Assembly: GCA_021775655.1 (NCBI GenBank)
Contig: JAJFHK010000356.1
Span: 1 to 17,501 of the forward strand
Source: Filomicrobium sp.
GTDB lineage: Bacteria > Pseudomonadota > Alphaproteobacteria > Rhizobiales > Hyphomicrobiaceae
Length of the DNA: 17,501 bases
Direction of reading: 5' to 3'
Part shown: positions 14,540 to 16,085 of the stretch, in pieces
Numbering within the stretch: the stretch's first letter is position 1
Layout: the number at the start of each line of letters is the position of its first letter
The notes under the pieces: generated by a model
Told to the model about the DNA's origin: nothing
The model's database searches: none
What the model saw: the letters and a program-made list of their open reading frames with translations, nothing else
Translations under genes and position numbers: made by a program

Positions 14540-14953
14540 TTATGTCCCTGCAGCTTGCTTCGCGAGCCTGTTGCGAAATTCTTCCGGAAGATCGTTGGGA
14601 ACATAAGTCGGCGTTGCACCGGCATCCGCCCGTTTGAGAGTCCTAAACCGCCCATAATTGGGGCTGAACGGTTCCGTAGGATCGTCAACAACGGGCCTGC
14701 GCGCTAGCGGCGGTGGAGTTTGAGCTTCCATGCCGTCATCTTCGATCTCAACCCGGTTCTGATGGCGATATCCTGCAACCCGAGCAGGAATGTAGCCTTG
14801 GGTTGCCGGTTGATAAACCGGCGCGCGGACATACGTCGGCGCACGCGAAGCGCATCCGGCAACCGTTAGAGCGGTCACCAGAACGACGCCGGCACCAAAC
14901 CGGCGGCACTTCCTCTTCGGCATCAGGCCGTGAGGACACGGAGATCTAAACAC
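14540..14953 (-). CDS. Small hypothetical lipoprotein
   Basis: I place the start at GTG 14953, because AGGAG at 14962-14966 lies 8 nt upstream, giving 137 aa. ATG 14923 is the alternative, without a good ribosome-binding site. A basic n-region (MPKRKCRR) and hydrophobic stretch GAGVVLVTALTVAGC end in a lipobox with Cys34, so it should be lipid-anchored in the envelope. The mature part is Pro-rich and polar (APVYQPATQGYIPARVAGYR, then EIEDDGMEAQTPPPLARRP) and looks unstructured, with DLPEEFRNRLAKQ near the end. I recognise no domain. It is probably co-transcribed with the downstream GNAT gene. Confidence 0.68.
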   Translation of the reverse strand: MFRSPCPHGLMPKRKCRRFGAGVVLVTALTVAGCASRAPTYVRAPVYQPATQGYIPARVAGYRHQNRVEIEDDGMEAQTPPPLARRPVVDDPTEPFSPNYGRFRTLKRADAGATPTYVPNDLPEEFRNRLAKQAAGT

Positions 14954-15114
14954 AACTAACGCTCCTGAAAAAACACAACGCAACTGACCAAAAGCCAAGC
15001 ACAGCTCCTGCTAAGAACTCCTTAACGCCTGCTCTAGAATCTAACGACGTGAGCACCGGCCCATCCGCCAGGTAGTCGGTATCACTGCTCTGTTCACGAA
15101 TTTGCAGCCCATCA

Positions 15115-15326: not shown

Positions 15327-15536
15327 CAAGTCTGTGGGTCGCATCACACTCATTCAACAGTCCGCTCACCTGCCGCTCTCATTCAAGTGAGACCGGCTTA
15401 CCGTCATGTGAGTTTATTTCCAGAAGTTGGACCACTAACTTCATTGGTGTCGGACAAACACTCCGGCAGCGCCAAACAAAAAAAATCGGCGTGAATCAAA
15501 AGATGAAATGAGCAACTTAAAAATTGGAGAATTGAT

Positions 15537-15722
15537 ATGAAGACGATTACGAGCATCCTTGCAGCCACTGCCATCCTTTTCGCGGCTTCTGCAGCCCAGG
15601 CCGATTTCGCTTCGGACTTCTTCGAAAAACAGAGCCTCTACGGTGAAAACATCGACCGCGATGCCATCCGCTCGGGTCAGACCGTCCACCCGCTGGGCGT
15701 TTTCGGCGCCGACGCTAAGTAA
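15537..15722 (+). CDS. Small secreted protein with one YGEN-type 15-residue unit
   Basis: The protein has 61 residues. It starts at ATG with GGAG at 15526-15529, 7 nt upstream. Residues 1-22 form a signal peptide (MKTITSILAATAILFAASA and AQA cleavage site), leaving a mature peptide of about 39 residues. Residues 27-41 read DFFEKQSLYGENIDR, the same unit found three times in the next gene and in the same register relative to the start. The tail, DAIRSGQTVHPLGVFGADAK, differs and may bear a separate function. There are no cysteines. The gene lies 63 nt before its relative, with no terminator between, so the two likely form one transcript. I recognise no family. The antisense frame 15441-15746 was rejected, because only this strand has a ribosome-binding site plus a signal peptide. 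Confidence 0.8.
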   Translation: MKTITSILAATAILFAASAAQADFASDFFEKQSLYGENIDRDAIRSGQTVHPLGVFGADAK

Positions 15723-15785
15723 CAGCGCGACTTCTCCGATCAGCACGAGACAACAACCAGAACAAAACCAACTAGGAGAATTCGA

Positions 15786-16010
15786 ATGAAAATCATCATG
15801 AGCATCCTCGCAGCAGCAGCCTTATTTGCCGCTACCTCTTCGGTTCAGGCCGGCACAGCCGAAGATTTCTTTGAGAAGCAGCAGCTTTACGGTGAAAACA
15901 CTGCAACCGACATCTTCGCCGAACAGCAGCTATACGGTGAGAATACCGCTACCGACATTTTCCTCGAGCAGCAGTTCTACGGCGAGAACCTTGCTCAGAC
16001 CGGCAAGTAA
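15786..16010 (+). CDS. Small secreted protein with three tandem YGEN-type 15-residue repeats
   Basis: The protein has 74 residues. It starts at ATG with AGGAGA at 15774-15779, 6 nt upstream. A signal peptide (1-22, ending VQA) is followed by GTAE and three 15-residue units in exact tandem: DFFEKQQLYGENTAT (27-41), DIFAEQQLYGENTAT (42-56) and DIFLEQQFYGENLAQ (57-71), then TGK. Between units, the codons for the QQ and YGEN core differ only at silent positions, which points to selection on the protein sequence. There are no cysteines and few charges other than Glu/Asp and Lys. It should be exported to the periplasm or beyond. The function is unknown. Possible roles of the repeats include oligomerisation, ligand binding or release of repeated peptides; none is shown by the sequence. 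A hairpin follows the gene. Confidence 0.82.
   Translation: MKIIMSILAAAALFAATSSVQAGTAEDFFEKQQLYGENTATDIFAEQQLYGENTATDIFLEQQFYGENLAQTGK
15864..15998 (+). repeat. Three in-frame 45-bp coding repeats
   Basis: The units at 15864-15908, 15909-15953 and 15954-15998 encode the three D-[FI]-F-x-[EK]-Q-Q-[LF]-Y-G-E-N units. By eye, units 1 and 2 share about 33 of 45 bases and units 2 and 3 about 31. Most differences inside the core are at third codon positions. The repeats are therefore old and kept by protein-level selection, not recent slippage products. Confidence 0.85.
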
Positions 16011-16047: not shown

Positions 16048-16085
16048 GCGGTGGAGCGAGGCACTGTCGATGCCTTCTCCACCGC
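16048..16085. terminator. Hairpin terminator between the small secreted-protein operon and the MarC-like gene
   Basis: GCGGTGGAG (16048-16056) pairs perfectly with CTCCACCGC (16077-16085). Inside, AGGCA (16059-16063) pairs with TGCCT (16071-16075) around a 7-nt loop. On the plus strand it is followed by the T-rich ATCCTTTATCTT. It lies in the 120-nt gap between convergent genes and could serve both, though neither side has a perfect T-run. Confidence 0.7.

Follow-up and report, generated by a model that had tools for sequence, protein, structure and literature searches.

Tandem genes for tiny exported YGEN peptides in Filomicrobium: a probable branch of a wider, unnamed family of exported peptides

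Introduction

Small exported products that are made under the control of a two-component system and act back on its sensor are exemplified by MgrB and CpxP. The likeness of these systems to the locus described here is one of idea only; no sequence relation is claimed, and the YGEN peptides are not members of either group. Short repeats containing Q, G, and N are likewise found in the exported curli subunit CsgA, but the length and pattern of its repeats differ from those of the YGEN units, and a Pfam match is absent. The library families DUF4148 (PF13663) and penta_MxKDx (TIGR02953) are weakly similar to YGEN proteins along the signal-peptide stretch, but the YGEN motif is absent from both.

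Another set of comparison is provided by peptides of other genera that we term FDAK type (for example P0121, named for Dichotomicrobium thermohalophilum). Like the YGEN proteins, they have an MKTI-type signal peptide and occur in tandem arrays. The mature part starts with F/L-D-x-K-x-F-[FWY]-x-Q-Q, and many of the genes have phased GTGA/TCAC boxes upstream. FDAK-type peptides mostly have a single unit within 38 to 42 amino acids, whereas YGEN proteins have G-E-N and one to three units of ∼15 residues. The HP tail is a feature of one YGEN form, unlike the FDAK type. Here we describe a YGEN gene pair in a window (the whole stretch of DNA analyzed) of 17,501 nucleotides from Filomicrobium sp.

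Results and Discussion

Two adjacent genes for exported YGEN proteins

The features of the locus are listed in Table 1. A sequence-only reading of the window had proposed two adjacent genes, for proteins of 61 and 74 amino acids, with which the coordinates and lengths found here agree; the signal-peptide length of 22 and the motif start at residue 27 were confirmed for both proteins, and GGAGAATT is present a few bases 5' of the ATG at both genes. The count of one motif unit in protein 1 and three in protein 2 also stood, but units 2 and 3 of protein 2 begin with D-I-F rather than the D-F-F that had been given for all of them. The signal peptides were assigned by eye, and the signal-type leaders of the two proteins end in AQA and VQA. 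In all 12 complete copies known from the genus, the mature part is acidic (pI 4.1 to 4.6) and contains no cysteine.

Table 1. Features of the YGEN locus in the window
Feature	Position	Strand	Basis
Upstream element: CAAGTGA (15384-15390), GTGA (15408-15411, 21 bp on), ACTAACTTC (15434-15442)	15384..15442	+	genus alignment
GGAG, likely ribosome-binding site of gene 1	15526..15529	+	sequence
Gene 1, 61 aa	15537..15722	+	relatives, genus conservation, dN/dS
Protein 1 signal peptide	residues 1-22		
Protein 1 unit	15615-15650 (residues 27-38)		
Protein 1 tail, IDRDAIRSGQTVHPLGVFGADAK			
GGAG, likely ribosome-binding site of gene 2	15775..15778	+	sequence
Gene 2, 74 aa	15786..16010	+	relatives, genus conservation, dN/dS
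Protein 2 signal peptide	residues 1-22		
Protein 2, unit 1	15864-15899 (residues 27-38)		
Protein 2, unit 2	15909-15944 (residues 42-53)		
Protein 2, unit 3	15954-15989 (residues 57-68)		
Stable hairpin 3' of gene 2, possible terminator before convergent marC	16048..16085	+	folding vs shuffles

The hairpin 3' of gene 2 has a folding energy of −26.8 kcal/mol (z, −4.2), and none of 200 shuffles was equally stable; the terminator scan did not list it, and the T run behind it is weak. The end of a 10-codon open frame at 15508-15540 (ATG AGC AAC ... TGA) shares the bases ATGA with the start of gene 1, and a similar ATGAGCAACTC is found in genome G004, in frame with the gene of that genome. The overlap with the start of gene 1 may be due to chance.

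A search of 5.8 billion proteins recovered four relatives of each protein besides itself, the worst at an E value of 1.6e-18, and none of the relatives of either protein had an informative name. No match for the pair was accepted in Pfam, NCBIfam, or PDB. Protein 2 had no Pfam match at E ≤1, and the only Pfam match to protein 1 was a sub-cut-off one to DUF4148, on the signal peptide; the NCBIfam result was similar. The DUF4148 match scored 14 bits against a curated cut-off of 27, and penta_MxKDx scored 12.9 bits against a cut-off of 41, and neither family was accepted. A precursor of PqqA or another modified peptide was also rejected, as there was no Pfam PqqA match at E ≤1 and no maturation gene was recognized among the flanking genes, and so was a curli-type amyloid, with no curlin repeat match in Pfam at E ≤1. 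Rfam gave no match, nor did plasmid and phage searches with protein 2. The motif had not been recognized from sequence, and no described family matched it in the libraries searched.

The cluster occupies a fixed place in the genus

Matches at E ≤0.01 were found in 7 of 99 genomes, namely, the window's own and six of the eight other genus members, and in none of the 90 genomes outside the genus. A contig scan found three loci among 70 stretches, on the same contigs as in G004, G005, and G008. The neighbors of the cluster are constant: marC and usg adjoin it on one side, and on the other there are a lipoprotein-like gene, a GNAT gene, and an amino-acid ABC operon (probably 'Aap'). The marC and usg matches exceed Pfam cut-offs, whereas the matches of the ABC components to transporter models of NCBIfam mostly do not reach the cut-off. 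Both flanks are complete in G005 and G001; the stretches taken from G004 and G008 had no match to usg and marC, respectively, and a single flank is visible in G002 and G006, where contigs end. Homologs with the motif, the signal peptide, and conserved neighbors, the evidence by which the sequence-only reading was to be judged, are thus present at the same place in six of the eight other genus genomes. G007 has both flanks and no YGEN gene between them, and G003, in which neither flank gene was found, is uninformative on the presence of the cluster.

The lipoprotein-like gene (LTVAGC; 14540-14998, minus strand) adjoins the cluster and is also found in G001, G004, G005, G007, and G008. It had no Pfam or NCBIfam match.

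There are one to three tandem copies per genome at this place. The 12 complete copies, from six genomes, have either the HP tail with one or two units or three units, and the G001 protein has one unit and a tail of its own. Two units plus the HP tail, an intermediate form, are found in P0008 and in both G005 copies, whereas copies G002_3 and G008_3 have a decayed motif. The order of the forms is tail and then repeat in the window; repeat, repeat, and tail in G008; and three tail forms in G002.

Against the window genes, close copies of the same type gave dN/dS values of 0.06 to 0.20 in seven comparisons, with dS near saturation between species; gene 1 versus copies 1 and 2 of G005 and G002 and gene 2 versus copies 1 and 2 of G004 and G008 fall in this range. 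Values for gene 1 versus the decayed copies were higher (0.31 for G008_3 and 0.44 for G002_3), as was that versus G001 (0.28), again with dS near saturation, and comparisons between forms gave 0.31 to 0.55. Within genomes, dN/dS was 0.12 for the G008 pair, 0.17 for the G005 pair, and 0.47 to 0.76 among the G002 copies. Conservation of the first unit is about equal to that of the signal peptide; only pairs that include G008_3 depart from this.

Because relatives are found at the same place in six of the eight other genus genomes and dN/dS is low, both genes are real; they are under purifying selection, and within the genus their location is constant and the cluster changes through tandem duplication and the gain or loss of motif units. 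A small family therefore exists, as had been proposed from the sequence, but the accompanying idea of related but distinct jobs for its members was not supported, given the intermediate forms, the variable order and number of copies, and the absence of the gene from G007.

A conserved element upstream of the cluster

The upstream element (Table 1) aligns without gaps in six genus genomes. All six have CAMGTGA followed by MCTA, 47 bp from the start of the first GTGA, and five of the six have two GTGA boxes 21 bp apart. The core pattern, with at most one mismatch allowed, had a single match in four of nine genus genomes, always at this place; its reversed control had one match, in G004. Over 177 loci (774,390 bases, with redundancy), CAMGTGA-N43-MCTANCTTC occurred at five distinct places, four in the genus and one before the FDAK-type array of G027, a likeness that had been seen by eye beforehand. 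The shorter CAMGTGA-N43-MCTA occurred at seven places (six in the genus and one in G027) and at none with four other spacings. Only the longer skeleton carries weight, because the shorter one is expected about once by chance under equal base frequencies, compared to 0.006 times for the longer one.

The element is likely a promoter or operator. A consensus scan found no sigma-70-like site at 15384..15442. As a coding stretch the element was rejected, with changes by codon position of 149/137/151 over the six genomes, which is not codon-like. In four close genomes the same counts were 43/28/52, which is mildly codon-like, and the frame is open in several genomes, so that a short coding stretch within the element keeps some small probability.

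A wider family of tiny exported peptides

Beyond the genus, the YGEN profile gave weak matches in four genomes (G101, G136, G055, and G104) of the bacterial family f1, which we take to be Hyphomicrobiaceae; it also matched MxaI of G007, on the signal peptide only. G101 encodes two adjacent 39-residue peptides that end in FDAKDFYQQQERQAY and ADFGSQGFWQQQGNRY. Of 631 candidate proteins, 395 were recovered at E ≤10 with an alignment of eight such peptides, the best at 1e-17. Among the 120 matches listed of these 395, 110 were 37 to 44 residues long and the other 10 had longer predicted starts; their common form was a signal peptide followed by F-D-[AS]-K-x-F-[FWY]-x-Q-Q. No publication was found in a literature search for the motif strings FDAKTFW, FDAKSFY, and FDSKTFW. 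As far as the database searches and this limited literature search reach, the family is undescribed, and we leave it unnamed.

Profile A7, built from 67 FDAK-type peptides with no YGEN row, matched 20 of 102 f1 genomes at E ≤1e-4, which belong to 6 of 25 genera. In G010, G013, G027, G033, and G048, three or four matches form an array; several of the matches in genus g21 cover the signal peptide only. Across the class, 1 of 385 genomes matched A7, on the signal peptide, with at most 19 candidates scored per genome. In PDB, profile A8 had no sequence match and A7 had one at chance level (E, 0.54; a permease). The wide searches at order and class level scored no more than 16 to 19 candidates per genome. 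With the YGEN profile, 2 of 385 class genomes besides the window's own matched at E ≤0.001: G692, in long frames of 356 and 389 amino acids, and G594, in a 72-amino-acid frame rejected by the signal-peptide rule. An order search with a three-row profile matched 42 of 397 genomes at E ≤0.01; most of the places inspected matched over the signal peptide only, and motif-bearing peptides were present in G013 and G207.

The YGEN pair most likely belongs, as the branch of its genus, to an unnamed family of exported peptides of 38 to 56 amino acids in the same bacterial family, with F-D-x-K-x-F-[FWY]-x-Q-Q as the mature motif and often encoded in arrays; in this branch the peptides would have become longer and the motif repeated. 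The reading is supported rather than proven. We count the link as supported because A7, which has no YGEN rows, nevertheless detects YGEN proteins in G001 (E, 5.2e-8) and in G005 (E, 5.8e-5), the matches spanning model positions 1 to 34; the link depends in part on the signal peptides. At E ≤1e-4, A7 misses the YGEN proteins of the window's genome, G002, G004, G006, and G008. The two alignments matched each other at 94.8% over 38 columns in hhalign, signal peptide included. Intermediate sequences are found in G001 (LDAQKFFDQQQLYGEN) and G027 (FDAAKFFQQLQLNGH), and G027 also has a two-unit peptide.

It is unlikely, though not greatly so, that the YGEN genes are instead an independent invention of the genus, resembling FDAK-type peptides mostly through the signal peptide and a chance likeness of aromatic and QQ residues. 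The match to MxaI illustrates that hits by signal peptide alone do occur. YGEN and FDAK-type loci had no neighbor in common in the five stretches compared, and a mature-only model of FDAK peptides alone was weak, with 4 of 20 YGEN proteins at ≤10 of 1,000 shuffles. Against an independent origin, a rule-based mature-only profile (38 mature peptides from 22 loci of other genera, the rows being related rather than independent) placed 11 of the 20 at ≤10 of 1,000 shuffles and all 20 at ≤78; this set was relied on, and a hand-picked set of 11 'bridge' peptides was set aside. The intermediate protein of G001, with its A7 match, and the promoter skeleton that the genus has in common with G027 also argue against it.

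Several other tiny exported proteins were encountered. L039 and L040 (G055 and G104) encode exported-type proteins of 70 to 79 amino acids with NDDF[RK]QALP repeats, which matched the YGEN profile over its first 20 to 30 positions only. Array members at L124 to L127 (G050, G013, and G036) have similar signal peptides and different mature parts (FGPNDLQTTASEK and SPWTPYGVTSGAEGK). Another tiny exported family, with a mature part of the CPFSDKSMC type, is present in four f5 genomes (L051, L053, L056, and L058 in G062, G316, G442, and G381).

Phased boxes before the arrays of other genera

Of 21 upstream regions taken from arrays of other genera, 18 were used; the three left out belonged to an internal gene, ran into a contig end, or contained an N. 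The most enriched tetramer was GTGA/TCAC, with 80 occurrences versus 31.6 ± 5.2 in dinucleotide shuffles. When the six genus regions were included, the spacing of the boxes peaked at 10 bp (TCAC-TCAC 10 times and TCAC-GTGA 8 times) and at 20 to 21 bp. At least five boxes were present in 9 of the 18 array regions versus none of 145 regions upstream of other genes at the same loci, which had a mean of 1.5 boxes and contained 4 pairs spaced by 10 bp and 3 spaced by 21 bp. GTGA/TCAC was not an enriched tetramer in the six regions of the genus, one of which had five or more boxes. Fewer than five boxes were present upstream of the arrays of G027 (two), G041 (one), G020 (one), and G044 (four). Because the genus regions and those of G027, G041, and G020 are poor in boxes, a regulator common to the genus and the other arrays is something that we infer.

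Pattern TCACYCNNNTTCACNNNNNNGTG, drawn from four arrays, was found at nine places in 8 of the 102 f1 genomes, compared to none for its reversed control. The nine places are the four source arrays, a gene in G026, pqqA in three genomes of genus g22, and one place in G135. The G026 gene encodes a further tiny exported peptide, of 42 amino acids from the second ATG or 60 from the first, and lies 131 bp on from the pattern if the second ATG is the start. The protein profile had no match in the genus of G026; the upstream pattern alone led to this gene.

Phased GTGA boxes are located ∼90 bp before pqqA, which we named from the peptide, in g22 (L141, L142, and L146 in G045, G134, and G135). PqqA matches were found in 77 of the 102 f1 genomes, up to eight per genome. 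Among 30 pqqA loci, a gene start was found by rule in 19 and not in 11; 4 of the 19 had at least five boxes, one of them (L172) with a mis-set start. Without L172, the mean was 2.6 boxes versus 1.5 in the controls, with four box pairs 10 bp apart. A link to a PQQ regulon was rejected, the general pqqA loci being too weak in boxes to claim one.

Regulators beside peptide genes of other genera

In G041, a peptide gene is located 3' of genes for a CusF-like protein, a Response_reg/Trans_reg_C regulator, and a HAMP kinase. A similar regulator and kinase adjoin the peptide gene in G044, and a similar regulator does so in G020, where the kinase was assigned by likeness only. Trans_reg_C regulators are of the OmpR/PhoB class, which binds tandem half-sites 10 to 11 bp apart. 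A link between this class and the peptide arrays is weakened because the kinase-linked arrays of G041, G020, and G044 are not rich in boxes. No two-component pair was found beside the cluster in the window.

The tiny exported peptide that follows the OmpR-class regulator and HAMP kinase at L129 (G041), L130 (G020), and L128 (G044) contains FPPKDFWDQQ. The CusF-like copper protein precedes the regulator and kinase genes in G041 and, by eye, in G020. An 80-amino-acid exported-type protein with three FDQ[IV] repeats (L129:3553-3795) adjoins the single-unit peptide of G041.

Potential role of the YGEN peptides

The promoter of the cluster might depend on an activator and have half-sites that are in helical phase and spaced as those of OmpR/PhoB-type response regulators are. 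Cleavage by signal peptidase would then yield an acidic, cysteine-free peptide of 35 to 54 residues in the periplasm or outside the cell. The mature peptide could bind an envelope partner through its short motif, valence and dose being determined by how many units and gene copies there are. As a specific guess, it would provide feedback to a sensor kinase or an envelope complex, or serve as a connector to one, in the manner of MgrB or CpxP. The grounds for the regulator and for feedback are, in full, the neighbors of the peptide genes in G041, G044, and G020 and the half-site spacing given above; partner, regulator, and function are all read from sequence and are putative. The whole proposal, a regulated genus branch of a tiny-peptide family that acts on an envelope partner, is tentative, and we think it somewhat more apt to fail than to hold. 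That G007 lives without the cluster counts against it.

Other roles appear less probable. The peptides could be secreted for cell-cell contact, as a signal or a narrow antibacterial whose units are released or presented in several copies, and the Sec-type leader, short repeated units, variable copy number, and restriction to a lineage are what such a peptide might show. However, no transporter, protease, modification, or immunity gene was recognized adjoining the cluster, the flanks being marC, usg, the GNAT gene, the lipoprotein-like gene, and the amino-acid ABC operon, and the peptides are acidic rather than cationic, which makes this role distinctly unlikely. It is very unlikely that the 15-residue units, each a strand or short helix with a G-E-N turn, stack or polymerize into a functional amyloid, coat, or other surface or matrix protein. 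Regular repeats with Q/N and aromatic residues in exported proteins are suggestive of one, but single-unit forms are common, Pfam gave no match to curli or another repeat family at E ≤1, and the AlphaFold model of protein 2 contained no strand stack, at a confidence (pLDDT, 52; pTM, 0.20) that makes it unreliable and too poor to claim any fold. A tiny membrane-active protein resembling type I toxins, with its hydrophobic start left uncleaved in the membrane, would agree with the tandem copies and with a start conserved about as much as the first unit, but is highly improbable considering that the A-x-A-type cleavage site is retained, selection acts on the mature part too, and Rfam gave no antisense RNA match.

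The proposal of a regulated peptide acting on an envelope partner can be extended to an undescribed family-wide regulon, of which the pair would be one branch. A single response regulator, binding TCAC/GTGA half-sites in helical phase, would drive arrays of motif peptides that tune an envelope sensor or complex; the mature parts would diverge while signal peptide and promoter persist. We regard this extension as speculative and rather unlikely to hold in full.

Peptides of 38 to 75 residues are easily missed or left unnamed. Within one bacterial family, many such peptides were seen here to have in common a motif, an arrangement in arrays, and a signature upstream of their genes. The upstream signature offers a way to chart this set of peptides, and a function established for one of them could account for many hypothetical proteins.
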